Source: a virus. Taken from it: DNA of 35,973 bases. The position numbers and the translations under genes are program-made. The notes below the pieces were generated by a model. The model saw only the letters and a list, made by a program, of their open reading frames with translations. It searched no databases and had not been told where the DNA came from. Each line of letters opens with the position of its first letter. Position 1 is the stretch's first letter. Shown here in pieces: positions 23,562-35,973 of this stretch. Where the stretch lies: positions 1 through 35,973 of IMG/VR virus record IMGVR_UViG_3300015209_000002; one strand, written 5' to 3'.

Positions 23562-24014
23562 TCATACTGCGTTCTTAGGGCGCCCATGCAGGATGGTGTC
23601 CCACTCGGCTAGTTCGGCCTCAGCCTCGGCCGTCATCGTCGAGAACGACACGGAGTGGGCGTCGGCAGACATTGACACGGCGCTGGCCCAGCGTCGGGAT
23701 GCGGGGGGATGCACCACGGGCGGTGTCCACGCCGGCCAGGACTCCCATGTCACGGCCTCGCTGGGGGGTTCGACCCCCTCGACCGTCCACACTTCAAAGG
23801 TCCGGTCCAGCGGGGCGCTGCGGAACCGGGTGGAGCCCGCCCACAGAACGCCGCGGCGGTACTCGGTACGGGGGCAGGGCATCGCTGCTGTCAGGCCGTT
23901 CTCGGCACCTGCCCAACCCCTGCCGATGACGTGCTGAATCACCGACAGCGACGACCCCTGAACGGCCCGCCACTGACCGTTCATGGGGCCTCCCAGCAGG
24001 AGAACTTCCCTCAC
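23562..24014 (-). CDS. Conserved-type phage protein with LLLGGPMNG motif
   Basis: 150 residues from GTG 24014 (GTGA overlap). It opens VREVLLLGGPMNGQWRAVQG, a pattern (hydrophobic strand, GGP-x-[DN]G) seen in many small actinophage proteins of unknown function. The middle part is beta-rich (LDRTFEVWTVEGVEPPSEAV) and the end helical and acidic (AEAEAELAEWDTIL). It is the last gene before the spacer preceding the packaging genes. Confidence 0.7.
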   Translation of the reverse strand: MREVLLLGGPMNGQWRAVQGSSLSVIQHVIGRGWAGAENGLTAAMPCPRTEYRRGVLWAGSTRFRSAPLDRTFEVWTVEGVEPPSEAVTWESWPAWTPPVVHPPASRRWASAVSMSADAHSVSFSTMTAEAEAELAEWDTILHGRPKNAV

Positions 24015-24604: not shown

Positions 24605-24897
24605 GAGTCTCCTTCGTCGTCGGGCAACTCCTGCACGTTCAGCACGTTGTCATCGTCGAGCCAGATGCGGGCACGTCCGCGCGTCGTCCAGCCCTCTCGC
24701 AGTTGGGCCACCATCTCGGGCGACACGGGGCACAGGACGGCGTCGGGCGTGACTGGCCGGGTCACTGCCAGCGCCGCCTCGGCGCCGTCCGCCCATCCCT
24801 GGTGGTACTCGCACGGCTTGCGGTACGAGGCGCACCGGCACCCCGCACGGGCAGCGGTGACCAGCTGGGCGTACAGGGCGTCGGTCTGGTCGGTCAC
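24601..24897 (-). CDS. 98-residue protein with CRC/C cluster
   Basis: GTG 24897 overlaps the upstream TGA as GTGA. The motif AGCRCASYRKPCEYHQGWADGA gives Cys-x-Cys...Cys...His, a possible metal-binding site, followed by an acidic tail (DDDNVLNVQELPDDEGDS). It resembles other small phage proteins with 'C-x-C...P-C-x-x-H-x-G-W/Y' segments. Function unknown. Confidence 0.68.
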   Translation of the reverse strand: MTDQTDALYAQLVTAARAGCRCASYRKPCEYHQGWADGAEAALAVTRPVTPDAVLCPVSPEMVAQLREGWTTRGRARIWLDDDNVLNVQELPDDEGDS

Positions 24898-25412
24898 AGC
24901 GGTGCTCGTTCAATGGCCCGCTGCGCCGACAGGTCGAGCGTTGACAGCAGGGCGGCGACGCTCGGCGGCATGAGGGCGGCTGTCGTGTGGCGCCGCTCCA
25001 CGCTGCCGTACAGGCGCAGGAAATGGGCACGGTCGGCCATGGTCGATTCCTCGGACATGCACAGCGCCCGGTAGCCGCCCATGGCAGCCACGGCGTCACC
25101 GATGGCGGGGTGTGACCACTTCGGGACGCCAACGTGACCGACTTGGGCGATGACCCGCCACACCTCGGCCATGGCCTCATCTGCGCTCGGGGTCGGGCTC
25201 GACAACGCGACGGCCTGGCAACGCACCTGACCGGGATTGGGAGCGAATCGCTCCCCCTCCGCCGACAGGGTGCGGATGGCAGCTAGGACCACGGCGGCGG
25301 CGAGGTCCAACAACAGGTGCTCGGACGCTCGGATCGTGCCGACTTCCCACTTCGAGCCCGGCCACAGCAAGCCGATTTCGGCGGCGACCTCGCCCAGCTC
25401 CGTCTTGGTCAT
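24894..25412 (-). CDS. Possible helicase loader (SPP1 G39P-like)
   Basis: 172 residues from ATG 25412 (ATGA overlap with the replication initiator). The layout TKTELGEVAAEIGLLWPGSK followed by a helical bundle and RFAPNPGQVRCQAVAL resembles the G39P/helicase-loader family (helices, then a 'F-x-P-x-x-G-x-[IV]R' element), here with an extra C-terminal half of 90 residues. Position directly after the initiator supports a replisome-organising job, recruiting host DnaB to the origin. No phage helicase is seen in the window. Alternative: unrelated replication accessory. Confidence 0.5.
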   Translation of the reverse strand: MTKTELGEVAAEIGLLWPGSKWEVGTIRASEHLLLDLAAAVVLAAIRTLSAEGERFAPNPGQVRCQAVALSSPTPSADEAMAEVWRVIAQVGHVGVPKWSHPAIGDAVAAMGGYRALCMSEESTMADRAHFLRLYGSVERRHTTAALMPPSVAALLSTLDLSAQRAIERAPL

Positions 25413-26293
25413 CCCACCAGCCCCTCTTGCCGCAGGTACTCCGCAGCGGCGTCGAGACCCACGGGGCGACCGTGGCCGTTCCGGTTGGGTAGACCCTCGG
25501 ACGCCTTGCGGACCCACACCTGCCACGCCTTCGTCCAGTCCACCTTGCTCGCCCGCTGGCCGCTCTCGGCCTGCCAGTAGTCACGGAACTTCGCCGTCTC
25601 GGCGGGCAGGGCCACTCCGGGCGCTTCCCGTTTCGCCCAGACGAGCATGTCGGTCGTGACCTCGAAGTCGTCGGGGATGCGGTGACCTTTTCGGCCCGGA
25701 GCCGAAGGCGACGGGGGGTCCGGCGGGAGGTTTGTGATCGCAGGCGGGATTCGTGCCGAACATTCTCTCGTCTCGTCTTCTCTCGTCTCGTCTTCTCTCG
25801 TCTTCTCTAGCGATCCGGTAAGCGATCGGTTGTGCGAATCCGATTCGGATCGCACTTGCGATCCCGCAGGCGATCGTTCTTGCGAACACCACTGGCATCC
25901 CCCCTGCGATTGGTCCTGGTGCCAGCGGTCGTGGTTCCCCTTCTGCCCAGCCACGGTCCGCTTGTCCCGTTCTGCCTGCACGTCCTTACGGGACGGGTTG
26001 TGATCGAGGAAGCCGACGATGAGGAACCCGTCGCCGTCCGCAGGGACCCACAGGTTGCGTCGAACCATCTCGGGCACGACCTTGGCAACGTCACGCTCCC
26101 TGAACCCGAGTGAAGTGGCGAGCCCGTCATCGGGAACCCAGCCGTCCGTGCCGTGCTCGTAGCAGTAGGAAATGGCGGCGGTCTGCAACCCGACAACGGC
26201 AGGCGACGCGCCGGCGTACCGGCGGGTACGCCAGAACCCGCAGTCGAGTGCGAACCGGGGCAGGCTGGCCGCCGACTTCATCAGCCCCTTCAT
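25409..26293 (-). CDS. Replication initiator carrying the origin within its gene
   Basis: 294 residues from ATG 26293 (ATGA overlap). N-terminal domain (about 8-110) is winged-helix-like: LPRFALDCGFWRTRRYAGAS, then EMVRRNLWVPADGDGFLIVG. The C-terminal domain (about 204-265; HRIPDDFEVTTDMLVWAKRE, VDWTKAWQVWVRKA) resembles the DnaT/primosomal type found in phage replication proteins. The linker 125-200 is low complexity, and its codons form the 12-bp iterons (residues about 128-161) and the following TREDE repeat. This is the lambda O plan: initiator with origin inside the gene. It should bind the iterons and recruit host helicase. Confidence 0.82.
   Translation of the reverse strand: MKGLMKSAASLPRFALDCGFWRTRRYAGASPAVVGLQTAAISYCYEHGTDGWVPDDGLATSLGFRERDVAKVVPEMVRRNLWVPADGDGFLIVGFLDHNPSRKDVQAERDKRTVAGQKGNHDRWHQDQSQGGCQWCSQERSPAGSQVRSESDSHNRSLTGSLEKTREDETREDETRECSARIPPAITNLPPDPPSPSAPGRKGHRIPDDFEVTTDMLVWAKREAPGVALPAETAKFRDYWQAESGQRASKVDWTKAWQVWVRKASEGLPNRNGHGRPVGLDAAAEYLRQEGLVG
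25766..25805. repeat. Strand-asymmetric 15-bp tandem repeat beside the iterons
   Basis: Two 15-bp units TCTCGTCTCGTCTTC plus a 10-bp partial, within a pyrimidine-rich tract at 25763-25808 (purine-rich on the gene's sense strand, encoding TREDE repeats). It is the lowest-GC stretch nearby. Next to the iterons it is a candidate DNA-unwinding element. Confidence 0.7.
25810..25911. repeat. Probable replication origin: nine 12-bp iterons
   Basis: On the minus strand the hexamer GATCGC or a variant recurs exactly every 12 bases, ending at 25810, 25822, 25834, 25846, 25858, 25870, 25882, 25894 and 25906. Four units are exact GATCGC; AATCGC, GTTCGC and ATTCGC differ by one or two bases; GATCCG and GATGCC are more diverged. 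The six bases between units vary, so the array is conserved as binding sites rather than as a simple duplication. It is followed in the gene direction by a purine-asymmetric, lower-GC tract, matching the lambda ori layout. Confidence 0.8.
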
Positions 26294-26590: not shown

Positions 26591-27133
26591 TCACGCGACA
26601 GCCTCGTCCACGGATCGCGGACCTTCGGTCCCCGCTCGCCTCCCGGCCTCCCGCCGTTGGTTCTGTTGCTCCAAGATCCGCTCCCTGTTGCGCCGGAAGT
26701 AGGCCCGCCGGTAGGCGTTGTGGCCCGCCCGGTGCTCGGTGCGGAGCACCCGTTGGCGCTCCCGCTCGGCCGCTAGGACCCGCTCGAGGTGGCGGAGCCG
26801 GTACCGCCGGTCCCGCTCGGCCCGCATCGCCCGCCGCCGTGCCGCCTCGGCATCGCCCGCCGCCCGCTCGGCTTCCTCGGCCGCATCGGCCTTCTCCACC
26901 AGATGCGCCGTCGCATCCTCCCACGCCTGCCCCCAGAGCAGCTCGGGGCACAGCCCCAGCGCCACCGCGGCCCGCTCGGCGCTGCGCTCGGGGATGGCGC
27001 CCTCTGCCTGCCACCGCTGGAGGACGCGCCGGGACACGCCCGTGCGCTCGGCCAGCTCCACCAGCGTCCACTGGCGGCCGGCGGCGAACGCCCAGAGTGG
27101 TTCCCAACTCAGCCGGGGCTGTACGGGGGTCAC
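26591..27133 (-). CDS. HTH DNA-binding protein with long basic coiled coil
   Basis: 180 residues from GTG 27133 (GTGA overlap). Residues about 22-62 are a Cro/CI-type helix-turn-helix (WTLVELAERTGVSRRVLQRW). From about 75 to 170 it is an Ala/Glu/Arg coiled coil (EEAERAAGDAEAARRRAMRA; ERERQRVLRTEHRAG) with an HNAYRRAYFRRNRERILEQQ segment. It precedes the palindrome-containing promoter of the replication genes, so it may regulate them, perhaps as an oligomer held by the coiled coil. Not a classical phage repressor by length or layout. Confidence 0.75.
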   Translation of the reverse strand: MTPVQPRLSWEPLWAFAAGRQWTLVELAERTGVSRRVLQRWQAEGAIPERSAERAAVALGLCPELLWGQAWEDATAHLVEKADAAEEAERAAGDAEAARRRAMRAERDRRYRLRHLERVLAAERERQRVLRTEHRAGHNAYRRAYFRRNRERILEQQNQRREAGRRAGTEGPRSVDEAVA

Positions 27134-28326
27134 GCGGCCACCACGGCGAGCAGGGCGGCCGCCATCGGCGGCGGAACGGCGTTACCGATCTGGCGCGCCT
27201 GCTCGCTCTTGTTGCCACGCCACGGGTAGTCGGCGGCGAAGCCCTGGAGCACGCCGAGCTCCCACAACTCAACGGCAACGGCGCGCGTCGACCACGACGG
27301 GTCGCCCGACTCGGGATGGTGGCCGCCGGGCGGGAACACGCGCCGGTCGCCCATGATCGTCGTCGCCGGCCGCTCCCAGCACCACCCGGCGACGTTGTGG
27401 CCGAGGGCGACGGTCGGGGCCGGGTCATTGACCAATCGGGCAGCCGGCCCAGCGACGTAGGACCGGCCGGGGTAGCGGAGCTTCCAGTTCGATCGGCCGG
27501 CGTTGGGGACCACCGTCGGGGCCGGTCCGTCGAGCGGCTTCTCGTGGTATCGCCGGTTTGCGACGGGTCCGGTGTAGTTGCTGGTGCGGAGCGTGGCGCC
27601 GTGCGTCCCGTCCCGGTCCTCGTAGAGCCACCGAGGCACTCGGGCACCACAGATGGTCCGGCTCGGCTTGGCGAAGGGATCGCAGTAGTTCCCGCTAGGC
27701 GCTGCGCTCCCGTTCTGCGTTTCTACGATCCGCCCGTCCCAGCCCCACCCCAGCGCCTCGGCCATCGAAACCCACCGTTGCCGGCCGGTACCGAACATCT
27801 CGCTCGCCCCGCTCTTGGAGTGCGTCGGCGCCGGCGGGGCCACACGTCGGTCCAGCGAGGCGAGAAGGAACGCACGGCGGCGGTTCTGGGCCACGCCGAA
27901 GTCGGCCACGTCGAGCACGCCACACCACACGGAGTAGCCCAGCGCGGCCAGCGGCGCTCGGAACGAGCGGAAGATGGGCGCCACCTCCTTGACGTTCTCC
28001 ACGGCGATCCACCGGGGCCGGGCCGCCTCGGCCCAGCGCATCACCTCGTAGACCAGCGGCCCCGTCTTCCCGCCCAGCCCAGCCCGTTTCCCGGCCGCCG
28101 AGAAGTCGGTGCAGGGTGGGGAGCCGATGAACCCCCACAGGCGGCCGTAGAGCGTCTCAGCGGGCCAGGTGGAGGAGTCAGCCCGGATGGTCAGATGCCC
28201 GGCCGCCGAACGGGTCAGGCACTCCGCTGCGCCCATCTCGATACCCACCGGCCGCAGGCCGAGCGTTGCCGCTCCAACGTCCCAGCCGCCGGGGCCGGCG
28301 CCCCAATCCACGATGAGGTCGCTCAT
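27130..28326 (-). CDS. DNA (cytosine-5-)-methyltransferase
   Basis: 398 residues from ATG 28326 (ATGA overlap). Conserved motifs are all present: I VDWGAGPGGWDVG (6-18), IV GSPPCTDFS with catalytic C72, VI ENV (110-112), VIII QNRRRAFLLAS (from 147), and X QIGNAVPPP near the C-terminus. Between VIII and X lies the target-recognition region of about 190 residues. No endonuclease partner is adjacent, so it is an orphan methylase, most likely protecting phage DNA against host restriction or marking it. Motif I has W-G-A in place of the usual L-F-A. Confidence 0.93.
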   Translation of the reverse strand: MSDLIVDWGAGPGGWDVGAATLGLRPVGIEMGAAECLTRSAAGHLTIRADSSTWPAETLYGRLWGFIGSPPCTDFSAAGKRAGLGGKTGPLVYEVMRWAEAARPRWIAVENVKEVAPIFRSFRAPLAALGYSVWCGVLDVADFGVAQNRRRAFLLASLDRRVAPPAPTHSKSGASEMFGTGRQRWVSMAEALGWGWDGRIVETQNGSAAPSGNYCDPFAKPSRTICGARVPRWLYEDRDGTHGATLRTSNYTGPVANRRYHEKPLDGPAPTVVPNAGRSNWKLRYPGRSYVAGPAARLVNDPAPTVALGHNVAGWCWERPATTIMGDRRVFPPGGHHPESGDPSWSTRAVAVELWELGVLQGFAADYPWRGNKSEQARQIGNAVPPPMAAALLAVVAA

Positions 28327-28589
28327 CGCCCCGCACGAGGGTTGACCTCGGTCACGTCCACCGTCAGCCCCCACCGGCACCCGGCCGCCGCCAGCGCCGC
28401 CACGCACAACCGGCTCGTGGTGCGCCGCACCGCGCCGTAACCGCCGTGGGCGAACAGGGGCGGCTCGTCCACCGTCACTGTCGTCACCAGCCCGGCGCAC
28501 GAAGGGCAGGTATTGGCGGGCAGGGGCACGAGGGCGCGCGAACCCGTCCAGCGGGCACGGGGGGCGAGGTCGAAGAGGGCGTCAGGCAT
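28323..28589 (-). CDS. 88-residue Cys-rich protein
   Basis: ATG 28589 overlaps the previous stop by eight bases (ATGCCTGA). The motif PLPANTCPSCAGLVTTVTVD then LFAHGGYGAVRRTTSRLCVA gives CPSC...C plus a later Cys, resembling a small zinc ribbon widespread in actinobacterial mobile elements. It is coupled to the cytosine methylase. Function unknown. Confidence 0.68.
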   Translation of the reverse strand: MPDALFDLAPRARWTGSRALVPLPANTCPSCAGLVTTVTVDEPPLFAHGGYGAVRRTTSRLCVAALAAAGCRWGLTVDVTEVNPRAGR

Positions 28590-31557: not shown

Positions 31558-31682
31558 GCTCGCCCCCCCCAGAAGGCGGCCACGGGGACGCGGTGGAACG
31601 CCCACCTGTGGAAGCTGCCCGGAGTGGCGAACACGTACAGGGCGCCCTCTCGGCGCATGAACACGAAGCGGCGGCGGGTCAT
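31554..31682 (-). CDS. 42-residue basic protein
   Basis: ATG 31682 overlaps the annealing protein's TGA as ATGA. Product MTRRRFVFMRREGALYVFAT then PGSFHRWAFHRVPV. Basic and aromatic, it may bind nucleic acid; no family. The tight overlaps on both sides support it. Confidence 0.6.
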   Translation of the reverse strand: MTRRRFVFMRREGALYVFATPGSFHRWAFHRVPVAAFWGGRA

Positions 31683-32581
31683 CCCAGCGTCATCCCTTCG
31701 GGTGTCAGGGCCTCGGCCGCCTCGATGAGTGCCCCCGCCTCCGCCCTGGTCAGCGACGAGAACGAGGCGACGGGGCGCCCGAGCTCCAGCGCAGCCCACC
31801 CCAGGCGGTCCTCCCGGTCAGCCAGTCCCCGCTCTGCGAGCAGCGGCATGAGGCGCCGCCGTTGGGGGTCGGTCATTGGTGAAGGGGCGGCCCCGGTCGA
31901 TCCAAGGGACGGAGACGCCGGGGCCACCCCCTCGGCCTCCGGGACGGGTGCGCCGCCCGGAGGCGTTCCGACGCCAGCCGACAGGTCGTGCCCGTCGTCG
32001 TCCGCCGCGGGGGGTGCGGCGGTGGAACTGGTGTCGGTGGTGGTGGTGGGCGGGCGGACCTTGCCGCCAGACTCGGTCCACCCGTGAACGTTGACGAGGT
32101 GCGGGATGTGCGCCGCCTTGCTCGGTGCCTTGGCCGTGCAGCCATCGACGGGGCAGGCGACGGGTGCCGACCTGCGGACCTTCGCCGCTTCGGCGTCGAA
32201 GTGCGCCGACTCCAGTTCAGCCTTGCTCCACAGGTCGAGCGCCACTCCGAAGCGCATAGCTGCGTTGCGGATGGCATCGCCAACCAGCTGCTTCTCCACG
32301 TCGAAGGCGTTGGGGGCGACGGAGCCGACGCCGAGACGGGACACGCCGCCGACAGTGAGGCGAATCCACATGGTCAGTTCCTTCGCCCCGTGGCGGATCA
32401 GCGGCCCGCCGTCGTCGGCCACGGCCATCGGCTCCCACGACCATTCCGGGTCCACAGACAGCAGGCGGTCGGTGACCGTGGCGTGGCCGATGTAGTCGAG
32501 CGTGATCCCCGCCTTCGGCAGCTTGCCCACGGCACTCGCTGGAAAGGCGGCACGAAGGGCGGAACTCTGCTCGGGCGTCAT
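31679..32581 (-). CDS. Rad52-like single-strand annealing protein with zinc finger
   Basis: 300 residues from ATG 32581. N-terminal annealing domain (about 18-125): LDYIGHATVTDRLLSVDPEW, then GVSRLGVGSVAP and GDAIRNAAMRFGVALDLWSK, the signature of phage Rad52/DdrA-type annealases. Residues 143-166 form an apparent C2H2 finger (C143, C148, H158/H161, H166). A disordered Pro/Ala linker (175-235) leads to a C-terminal helical domain (RRLMPLLAERGLADREDRLG) often found in these proteins. With the Gam-like protein and nuclease encoded just upstream, it forms the phage recombination module. Confidence 0.85.
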   Translation of the reverse strand: MTPEQSSALRAAFPASAVGKLPKAGITLDYIGHATVTDRLLSVDPEWSWEPMAVADDGGPLIRHGAKELTMWIRLTVGGVSRLGVGSVAPNAFDVEKQLVGDAIRNAAMRFGVALDLWSKAELESAHFDAEAAKVRRSAPVACPVDGCTAKAPSKAAHIPHLVNVHGWTESGGKVRPPTTTTDTSSTAAPPAADDDGHDLSAGVGTPPGGAPVPEAEGVAPASPSLGSTGAAPSPMTDPQRRRLMPLLAERGLADREDRLGWAALELGRPVASFSSLTRAEAGALIEAAEALTPEGMTLG

Positions 32582-33183
32582 GCGCCGACCTCGGGCTTGG
32601 CCTCGAGCCGCTCGGGCGAGCGACGGACCTCCACGAAGCGAGCGACCTCGCCACCCTCGAGGATGACGGTTACGCCATCGGCGCCCACCTTCATGCGCTT
32701 GATGGCCGCCTTGTCGGGCGCCTCCTTGGTGCGGATGAGCGACGCGTTGCCGCTCTCCTTGGCCCACTCCACGAAGCGCTCCTCGTCCACGACCTCGATG
32801 CGCTCGGGCTGGCGCCGGCCGGTGATGGTGCCGGTTGGCAGCCGGTAGGACTTGGTGACCGGGTTGTCCTCGTCCTCGCCCCGCTCCCGGCGGATGTGGC
32901 GCAGGTACTCGGTCAGGCAGCCGGTGAAGAAGTTCTCGTCGCCCTCCAGCGGCTTGTCCGCCGAGTCCACCCACTCACCGATGCGGCGGACCTCGGCGTC
33001 GGCCACGGCCACGATGCGGGCGCGCTCGGCCTTGATCTTCCCCAGCCGGCGCATGGCCCACGTCGCCACGCCGTCCCGAGCCTCGGGCTGGTAGCCCATG
33101 ATCGACCAGCGGCCCTCCTCGTCCACCCGCCACAACTCGGTGCCGTCGGGCGGGGCGTCGAGGAACTCGTCCAAGTCCGTCAT
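32578..33183 (-). CDS. Mu Gam-like DNA-end-protecting protein
   Basis: 201 residues from ATG 33183 (ATGA overlap). The family pattern is recognisable: MRRLGKIKAERARIVAVADA, FFTGCLTEYLRHIRRERGED, SYRLPTGTITGRRQPERIEV, and the late ASLIRTKEAPDKAAIKRMKV. Mu Gam relates to Ku and binds linear DNA ends, shielding them from RecBCD/AddAB-type exonucleases. The first 45 residues (TDLDEFLDAPPDG...) are an added N-terminal tail. Coupled upstream to the PD-(D/E)XK-like protein and downstream to the annealase. Confidence 0.85.
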   Translation of the reverse strand: MTDLDEFLDAPPDGTELWRVDEEGRWSIMGYQPEARDGVATWAMRRLGKIKAERARIVAVADAEVRRIGEWVDSADKPLEGDENFFTGCLTEYLRHIRRERGEDEDNPVTKSYRLPTGTITGRRQPERIEVVDEERFVEWAKESGNASLIRTKEAPDKAAIKRMKVGADGVTVILEGGEVARFVEVRRSPERLEAKPEVGA

Positions 33184-33626
33184 CGGTCGTTGTCCTCCAC
33201 TGGTCGGAACAACTCGGTGAGCAGGCTCTTGAAGGGGATGACAACGCCTTTGGTGGGGTGGCTCCCCCGAACACACTCCTTGCCAAAGAACCGCGGAGCT
33301 GACTTCAATAGCCGCCGAGCAGCAACTTTGAGTCGCCACGTCGGCACAATGAGGACGGTGTCACTGGCGATGACGATGGCCCACAACTCTGCTTGGGTCG
33401 TGGCGATGCCGCTCTTGACGTACACGCCGAACCTCTTGCACTCGTACTCCACAAAGATCCGCTCGTACTTCGTGGCCTTCTCGTCGGTCTTGATCTCCAC
33501 CCGGCCCGTGCCGTCTCGAAGCGCGTCACAGATGCTCGCCACATACAGTTCGCCTTGCGCTCCGACGGCAAGGTCGATGTCAAAGTCGGGCTGGTAGCCG
33601 TCAGCCATCCGGTCTACGGCGGTCAC
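33180..33626 (-). CDS. PD-(D/E)XK-like nuclease
   Basis: 148 residues from GTG 33626 (GTGA overlap). The core reads DFDIDLAVGAQGELYVASIC (E26), GRVEIKTDEK with E44-I-K46, and RIFVEYECKRFGVYVKSGIA, matching the fold of small holiday-junction-resolvase/VRR-like nucleases (E...D/E-x-K). It lies in the recombination module with Gam-like and annealing proteins, so branch resolution or end processing is likely. Exact family uncertain. Confidence 0.7.
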   Translation of the reverse strand: MTAVDRMADGYQPDFDIDLAVGAQGELYVASICDALRDGTGRVEIKTDEKATKYERIFVEYECKRFGVYVKSGIATTQAELWAIVIASDTVLIVPTWRLKVAARRLLKSAPRFFGKECVRGSHPTKGVVIPFKSLLTELFRPVEDNDR

Positions 33627-34582
33627 GACTCGTTCCCCCAAGTGCTCCAGCCCAGGCGGCGGCGACGGGCGAACATGTCGAGAAACGGACCGTTGCTGGC
33701 CTTCTCGACGAGGTCGTAGAAGGAGTCGGGCTTGGCCGAATGGCGTCCGCGGGGCGCCTCGAAGTGGTTGCGGAGCGTGCGGTCATTGGTGGGTAGGCCG
33801 CCACGGGTGCCGAATAAGACGTGCTCGGTGCACGAGCGAAAGTAGTTGCCCATACCAATCTGCGGCTTCACCCATGTGAGAAGCGTCTTGTAGGTGAAGC
33901 CCCACGACTCCATGACGGTGAACGCCTCTCGCAGAAACCCGTTGGTTGTCCACAGGTACAGGTGGGCGGCGTCGGCGGCGGGCACGTCGAGGGCACACAG
34001 GGCCTCAATGGTCATGGTGGCGTAGTGGTCTTCGGCCGCCCCGCGCGTGGCGGTGTTGCCGTACTGCCAGGGCGGGTCGGCCACGACGGTGACGAACACG
34101 TCGGGAACCGCATCGGCGTCCCCCACAACGTGAAGTTGTGGGGTGCTTACTGACGCCCGCGTCTGCTTCGCCACCTTTAGGACGCCAGCGGTGGTCAACT
34201 CCTTTGCCTCGTTGTGCGCCTCCGCAATGCACGCCTCGAAGTCGGGTTCAGGCAGGGCAGCGATGCGCTGCCAGCGGGAGGACTGGTTGTGGTTGATGCC
34301 TGCTCCTCCCAGCGTGGGAGCGGCACCGTGCTGGTTCGGCTTCTTCGCCATACCGGTCAGTAACTCACCGGCCCTGCGCTCCGCCCGCAGCTTCAACTCG
34401 GCGCACTGGTTCTGCATCTCCAGGCCGTAGTTCGCCTGCTTGGCGTAGAGGCGCAGGGCCTCCGCCTTGTCTCGGATGGACTTCACCTCGTCCACCGTCC
34501 CAGCGGCTTCAAGCATCGCTCGGGCCTGCGTCAGCAGGGCGAGGGGAGCATCCGCCTCGGTGTTGACGGCGAGGTCCGTCAT
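33623..34582 (-). CDS. MT-A70 family adenine DNA methyltransferase
   Basis: 319 residues from ATG 34582. The catalytic motif DPPW lies at 169-172 (VTVVADPPWQYGNTATRG), followed by HLYLWTTNGFLREAFTVMES and KTLLTWVKPQIGMGNYFRSC, standard for MT-A70 enzymes that make N6-methyladenine. The N-terminal 140 residues form a helical ParB-linked-like extension (DEVKSIRDKAEALRLYAKQA; AELKLRAERRAGELL) seen in mobile-element members. No cognate nuclease is adjacent; protection against restriction is likely. Confidence 0.9.
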   Translation of the reverse strand: MTDLAVNTEADAPLALLTQARAMLEAAGTVDEVKSIRDKAEALRLYAKQANYGLEMQNQCAELKLRAERRAGELLTGMAKKPNQHGAAPTLGGAGINHNQSSRWQRIAALPEPDFEACIAEAHNEAKELTTAGVLKVAKQTRASVSTPQLHVVGDADAVPDVFVTVVADPPWQYGNTATRGAAEDHYATMTIEALCALDVPAADAAHLYLWTTNGFLREAFTVMESWGFTYKTLLTWVKPQIGMGNYFRSCTEHVLFGTRGGLPTNDRTLRNHFEAPRGRHSAKPDSFYDLVEKASNGPFLDMFARRRRLGWSTWGNES

Positions 34583-35304: not shown

Positions 35305-35973
35305 GACGCAACCAGCGCCCGGCCGTGGACATCGACCTCGACGCACCCCGGCGACACGACTCGGCGGGCTTTTATTTTGGCCGGGTAGTTGTCGTTGGCC
35401 CGCGGCGCCCGCATCTCGTCCACCCGCACCGGGCAGGCGACGAACCGGGTGAACGAGGCGTCGAAGGCCCCCGCCTCGTGCGGACTGGCGCAGAAGTGGA
35501 GCCCGCCGCCGCACTCTTGCTTGCCGCCGTCCCAATCGGCCGCCTCGGGTGTGGCGCCGGGCGAGTAGTCGGCGCCTCGCTGGCTGGCGAAGTCGTCCCG
35601 CACCGCCTTGTACAGCGTGGCGATGCCGTCGACCACCTCGACGCCCCTGTACTCGCACCACTCCTCGGCCGTCGTGGGGTGGGGCACGGTGATGATGACG
35701 CCGCCGTGGAGCGACGTGCGTGGCCCGTGGTCCTGGACGGCGACGAACTTCGAGGCCGTGACGGTGGCCGAGCCGGATGCCCTGACGGTGGCCGAGCCGG
35801 ATGCCCTGACGGTGGCCGAGCCGTAGGCCCTGACGGTGGCCGAGCCGTAGGCCGTGACGGTGGCCGAGCCGTAGGCCGTGACGGTGGCCGAGCCGGATGC
35901 CCTGACGGTGGCCGAGTCGTAGGCCGTGACGGTGGCCGAGCCGTAGGCCGTGACGGTGGCCGAGCCGTAGGCC
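35301..35973 (-). CDS. Solenoid-repeat protein with C-terminal DUF7666-like domain, 5' end missing
   Basis: The frame is open from TGA 35301 to the right edge. The N-terminal visible part is eight-residue repeats (ATVTAYGS, ATVRASGS and similar) from the 24-bp array, likely a beta-solenoid. After TASKFVAVQDHGPRTSLHGG comes a compact domain: KAVRDDFASQRGADYSPGAT, DWDGGKQECGGGLHFCASPH, RFVACPVRVDE, YPAKIKARRVVSP. I recognise this as a DUF7666-type domain found with such repeats in phage proteins. Function unknown; the start lies beyond the window. Confidence 0.78.
   Translation of the reverse strand, partial: AYGSATVTAYGSATVTAYDSATVRASGSATVTAYGSATVTAYGSATVRAYGSATVRASGSATVRASGSATVTASKFVAVQDHGPRTSLHGGVIITVPHPTTAEEWCEYRGVEVVDGIATLYKAVRDDFASQRGADYSPGATPEAADWDGGKQECGGGLHFCASPHEAGAFDASFTRFVACPVRVDEMRAPRANDNYPAKIKARRVVSPGCVEVDVHGRALVAS
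35760..35973. repeat. 24-bp tandem repeat at right edge (about 9 units)
   Basis: Eight complete 24-base units (GACGGTGGCCGAGCCGKAKGCC plus a CT or GT end) and a partial ninth reach the window edge. Units differ by few bases, so the array has expanded recently. It encodes the eight-residue solenoid repeat on the minus strand. Confidence 0.9.

Follow-up and report, generated by a model that had tools for sequence, protein, structure and literature searches.

Iterons, a strand-polar ladder of short repeats and a low-stability region at the probable replication origin of a tailed phage

The window, by which we mean the whole 35,973-bp virus record analysed here, very probably contains the replication origin of a phage, located within the linker of the phage's own initiator gene. 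The site consists of an array of iterons followed directly by a ladder of short tandem units in DNA of low stability. Iterons, ladder and instability peak occur in this order, abut each other and are conserved at the DNA level, not at the protein level, and the ladder is strand-biased. Judging from the sequences compared, the ladder appears to be a general component of phage origins of this kind.

The origin region of the window

The record was identified as that of a tailed phage from its terminase, portal, capsid and tape-measure genes. Its host is probably actinobacterial, based on the presence of a gene for a WhiB-type regulator, and its whole-genome GC content is about 69%. Megablast of the 11–36 kb stretch against phages returned no match. 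The following features of the origin region were assigned:

25810..25911, minus strand: iteron array of nine GATCGC-like hexamers in 12-bp steps, from the hexamer register
25763..25803, minus strand: ladder of tandem 5-bp units GACGA/GACGA/GAGAA, from tandem-repeat, composition and stability analyses
25409..26293, minus strand: replication initiator gene, from matches to PHROG replication initiation families (E 1e-16) and AlphaFold domains
25409..25681, minus strand: DnaT-like C-terminal domain of the initiator, starting with RIPDDF, from alignments with relatives
24894..25412, minus strand: probable helicase-loader gene, from a match to the P-like helicase loader phrog_109 (E 2.4e-7)

The ATG at 26293 is the likeliest start of the initiator gene; the open frame reaches 26341. 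The ATG of the loader gene overlaps the stop codon of the initiator gene (ATGA), and the query used in the phrog_109 search started three codons upstream of the gene start. The cumulative GC skew has its maximum at 23,725, 2 kb from the iteron array. Elsewhere in the window, genes for C5-cytosine and MT-A70 methyltransferases are found at 27130–28500 and 33623–34582, and adjoining genes for a single-strand annealing protein and a Mu Gam-like end-protection protein lie at 31679–33339. A 24-bp tandem repeat (35753–35973; 9.2 copies, 93%) extends into the contig end and encodes AVTVAEP repeats in one reading frame.

An earlier note on this DNA had described nine GATCGC-like hexamers at an exact 12-base period, four of them identical, and this was confirmed on the minus strand, where the first bases of the hexamers are at 25911, 25899, 25887, 25875, 25863, 25851, 25839, 25827 and 25815. 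Four of the nine are exact copies of GATCGC (25875, 25863, 25827 and 25815), two have one mismatch (AATCGC and GTTCGC) and three have two (GATGCC, GATCCG and ATTCGC). The array also includes an imperfect dyad, GTGCGATCCGAATCGGATTCGCAC. The serine at every fourth residue of the encoded protein, also pointed out in the note, is real. Only three sites in the window have at least four exact in-register hexamers at periods of 9–15 bp, namely the array and the simple tandem repeats at both ends, while random Markov genomes yielded 0.017 such sites per genome. (By plain 12-bp identity, disregarding the hexamer, the array ranks only fourth in this coding-rich window, which is not unusual.) When the peptide was preserved and recoded with phage codon usage, none of 20,000 trials contained four exact copies, the maximum being three, and none reached the observed register score. 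The array is thus constrained as DNA beyond the requirements of the protein. No DnaA box was found near it.

The ladder starts directly after the last iteron and forms a perfect 15-bp super-unit repeated 2.7 times. On the initiator strand it contains 49% A and no T. The asymmetric tract of lower GC described in the earlier note was borne out as far as asymmetry and composition are concerned (about 50% GC, compared to about 69% in the genome), but it is a structured tandem array and not a plain tract. Among all 40-bp stretches of the window, the one at 25770, which the ladder overlaps, ranks sixth for low stability. Neither a hairpin nor a separate AT-rich element was found after the ladder; here, the low stability resides in the ladder.

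The initiator matched PHROG families 1408, 2447 and 3926 over most of its length, with E values of about 1e-16. These are initiation families other than the O family, to which the protein does not belong; by sequence, it is a distant member of the PHROG 2447/3926 actinobacteriophage initiators. Only one distant viral contig was found to carry a relative of this protein, and none was found among the genome contigs searched. The AlphaFold model is confident at residues 12–127 and 201–266 and has low confidence at residues 146–197. The protein is laid out as a winged-helix N-terminal domain, a disordered linker and a DnaT-like C-terminal domain, and the iteron array encodes its middle, i.e., the predicted disordered linker. 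The best fold matches of the N-terminal domain were winged-helix DNA-binding proteins, although these matches were weak (E 0.02–0.1). The C-terminal domain is helical and confidently modeled; a fold search with this domain produced no match in the PDB, and sequence searches of the PDB gave no useful match.

Related and held-out initiators

We collected some 100 loci of related initiators and selected from them 67 non-redundant discovery loci on the basis of less than 50% shared 8-mers; related loci remain among these, and the statistics given for them are not fully independent. The tandem arrays of the relatives are concentrated 250–500 bp downstream of the initiator start. A ladder score was defined from runs of 4–8-bp units, with a threshold that 1% of 805 control stretches exceed (99th percentile). 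Of 101 loci, 79% were above it, compared to an expected 1%. Upstream of the ladder, repeats at lags of 11–13 bp, or doubles thereof, were significant in 52 of the 67 loci, and the gap between the last iteron and the ladder had a median of 3.5 bp. Since relatives carry arrays at the same place, the absence of the array, which the earlier note had named as the observation that would speak against an origin, was not what was found, with the provision that no close relative was available. The proposal of that note that the phage origin lies in the initiator gene is supported by these arrays and by the presence of the initiator and loader genes. Counting against it are the position of the GC-skew maximum, which does not decide the matter, the low stability of the window's ladder in place of a separate AT-rich element or hairpin, and the purine composition of this ladder. 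Its description of the array as unusually short and dense has to be given up, as dense steps of 11–13 bp are the rule among related initiators.

Stability drops sharply in the 30 bp that follow the ladder, with a destabilization peak of +0.22 kcal/mol per bp (t = 18.5, 67 loci), and the ladder itself is often GC-rich in the relatives, as in CCCGA. A hairpin with arms of at least 8 bp follows the ladder in 18% of loci, compared to 0.9% of controls; with arms of at least 6 bp, hairpins were found in 23 of the 67. The hairpins located right after the ladder in L026–L028, L031, L040–L044, L073 and others have a common four-base loop, TAAC, TGAC or TAAA, closed by a C-G pair.

The ladder units of the relatives include CCCGA, CCCGAA, CCCGTA, CCCATA, ACCAGA, ACCAAC, ACNN and ACCATTA, among others, so the sequence varies while spacing and strand bias are constant. 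The ladder of the window differs from the usual ACC/CCC type in being of a purine type; other ladders that are not of the C type were found in L161 (CAGAG), L240 (AGAGGT) and L242 (ACAGG). There was no clear link between the period of the ladder and that of the iterons. On the N-terminal tree, which is poorly resolved and has the window on a very long branch, at least nine changes of ladder period were counted. The C-terminal domain is often swapped among the L003–L104 initiators, being DnaT-like, of an FWxxYPRK type or missing, and 18 such changes were counted on the N-terminal tree, with iterons and ladder persisting.

In 26 of the 67 loci the initiator frame stops before the array and the ladder, which identifies the ladder as a DNA element. 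In Dori, DrYang and Doucette the region of array and ladder is intergenic, with no depositor-annotated gene. The Arthrobacter phage DrYang group has its iterons in non-coding DNA and shares with the window an iteron core, ATCGCA/TGCGAT, in a 12-bp register, while the proteins are only about 31% identical to that of the window.

Two sets of loci were held out, with the ladder score and its threshold fixed in advance. The first comprised 23 initiator loci found in 395 genomes drawn from a single class (that of an Arthrobacter genome). In this actinobacterial set, ladders were detected at 12 of 23 loci, compared to 3 of 79 control stretches (p = 3e-7). The second set was reached through the contig L002, whose protein combines a C-terminal domain like that of the window (39% identity) with an unrelated N-terminal domain, DUF1376, and whose locus contains iterons of 11 bp and a ladder of 6 bp together with an AT-rich stretch and a hairpin. 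The L002 protein scores above the cut-off for the Pfam DnaT family PF17948; when this profile was compared with the C-terminal domains, the window itself gave no match and one of 18 members matched with an E value of 2e-4. The L002 protein led to 15 phages, 13 of them proteobacterial, with the different N-terminal domain. Ladders, with units including ATACAG, AACCAG, ACCCAAT and AAGCCAG, were present in 12 of the 15, compared to none of 57 controls (p = 3e-11).

Two further observations concern other elements near these origins. The DnaA-box sequence TTATCCACA or TTATGCACA is found 89–144 bp past the ladder in L005, L078, L089, L091 and L095, all of the Dori clade, and the Dori-clade set has five boxes in 54 kb, compared to seven in 333 kb elsewhere. 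The DnaA box was rejected as a general origin part, being near the ladder only in these five loci. Three loci that lack a ladder (L022, L082 and L088) have an HNH or endonuclease-VII-like sequence at the place where the origin is expected, where homing endonucleases may possibly reside.

Role of the ladder and alternative explanations

The step that leads from iterons to a correctly oriented helicase is settled only for lambda and a few other models. We tentatively suggest that the ladder is a strand-specific loading element with a function like that of the DnaA-trios. The winged-helix domain would fill the iterons, which are spaced 12 bp or about one helical turn apart, to form a nucleoprotein complex, and strain in this complex could open the adjoining DNA, which is of low stability. 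The ladder would then provide the direction of opening and the strand, its spaced units acting as recognition rungs on the T-poor strand. The reader of these rungs might be the C-terminal DnaT-like domain, the phage loader, or a host or other partner, bound to the single-stranded ladder, and such binding would set the polarity of DnaB loading. Similar ladders occur with DNA-binding domains that are unrelated to each other, and the reader may therefore be the loader or a host protein rather than the initiator. The idea that the 5-nt unit corresponds to the footprint of DnaT was dropped, because DnaT binds 2 nt per subunit (PMC4132743).

With equal reserve, we extend this reading to a wider group of phages. 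Unrelated initiators in phages of Actinobacteria and Proteobacteria would have in common a strand-polar ladder of 4–8-bp units, usually with an ACC or CCC anchor, between the iterons and the melting region; it could serve as a single-strand recognition ladder that fixes the strand and direction of helicase loading, and the PEPEPE, DTDTDT and PTRPD linkers would be its shadow in the protein. If the ladder is such a general element, phage origins could be located by a sequence signature from the genome alone, the odd dipeptide linkers of many annotated initiators would be explained, and the polarity of helicase loading could be tested through synonymous recoding.

It is unlikely that the ladder acts through the shape of the DNA, with a G-quadruplex on the G-rich strand holding the origin open. 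A four-run G3 motif is indeed present opposite the initiator strand in 37 of the 67 ladders, compared to 0.27% of background stretches. However, the other 30 ladders, including that of the window and the 4-bp ladders, keep the regular spacing without the motif, and no folding of the window ladder was predicted on either strand. The G-quadruplex was rejected as the common denominator of the ladders on account of these 30.

Similarly doubtful is the possibility that the ladder has no function and grew by slippage where the strands are opened again and again. Slippage readily generates short tandem repeats, and the copy number differs among relatives. However, the anchor bases are spared by substitutions: none of 19 substitutions in ladders with 5-bp units fell in the CCC anchor, and none of 32 in ladders with 4-bp units fell in the AC anchor, the changes being confined to the other bases. 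(The phase was picked by the anchor, but this choice does not account for that many zeros at adjacent positions.) Moreover, the T-poor strand is constant: over all sets, 90 ladders differ in A and T content on the initiator strand, and A is the more frequent base in 84 of them. In addition, differing unit sequences are found at the same place in unrelated initiators.

We considered whether the array might be an operator and not an origin, through which the initiator represses or tunes its own operon, the ladder being incidental. Winged-helix regulators bind such repeats, and the fold matches include AraR and MarR-type regulators. This explanation is quite improbable, however, given that the array is located inside or after the gene rather than at a promoter, that it abuts the ladder and the instability peak with replication genes next to it, and that lambda and SPP1 have proven origins with the same arrangement (PMC6316719).

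Selection of the repeats for the protein, as a proline-rich or charged dipeptide-repeat linker, is very unlikely. Coding ladders do encode PTRPD, PEPEPE, DTDTDT or REDET, but units of 4, 5, 7 and 8 bp and 11-bp iterons break the codon phase, the 26 ladders noted above are outside the initiator frame, and the peptide fails to explain the window array upon recoding. That the array is a GATC methylation switch, a cluster for adenine methylation read by a phage or host enzyme, is extremely improbable: the window has no denser cluster of GATC (five in 100 bp) and the phage has the MT-A70 gene at 33623–34582, but the iteron cores of most relatives lack GATC.

Comparison with known origins

An origin inside the initiator gene is of an already known kind, represented by lambda O and SPP1 gp38/oriL, and the window has the features of this kind, i.e., iterons in the initiator gene and an adjacent low-stability, strand-asymmetric element. 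The lambda gene O origin, like the window, has iterons in the initiator gene, an A-rich, strand-asymmetric tract and an adjoining loader gene. The lambda tract contains loose AAAAGA units and is followed by a hairpin, the same order as in the relatives; the palindrome that follows the asymmetric tract in lambdoid O/P origins is absent from the window. The lambda iterons are 18 bp long and spaced by 20–24 bp, compared to 12-bp steps in the window, the lambda initiator is of another family, and the lambda tract is less regular than the tandem array of the window and falls below the ladder-score threshold in the reference sequence.

In SPP1, gene 38 contains direct repeats, there is a DUE rich in AT, and the loader gp39 is encoded downstream (PMC6316719). 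The window resembles it in having direct repeats inside the initiator gene and a loader downstream, whereas a regular ladder of short units is not part of the published description of oriL, by which it was compared. Many genes of the PHROG 2447/3926 actinobacteriophage initiators end before the array, unlike that of the window. Text searches within a published survey of 46 Arthrobacter phages turned up no mention of a replication origin or of iterons. Our search of the open-licence literature, a scope that does not establish priority, gave no description of such origins as having a regular, strand-polar ladder for a constant third component.

The closest described principle is that of the DnaA-trio and DnaD recognition element of Bacillus subtilis oriC, in which short repeats specific to one strand and an unwinding region come after the double-strand binding sites (PMC10201434). 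DnaA-trios consist of a trinucleotide repeat beside DnaA boxes, and the window has neither; its units are 5 bp long, and those of the window and its relatives together range from 4 to 8 bp, compared to 3 in the trios, and the initiator family differs. The DnaD element consists of TnnT pairs opposite the trios. The plus strand of the window contains TTCT and TCGT in phase, whereas most ladders, TCGGG being an example, are without such pairs.
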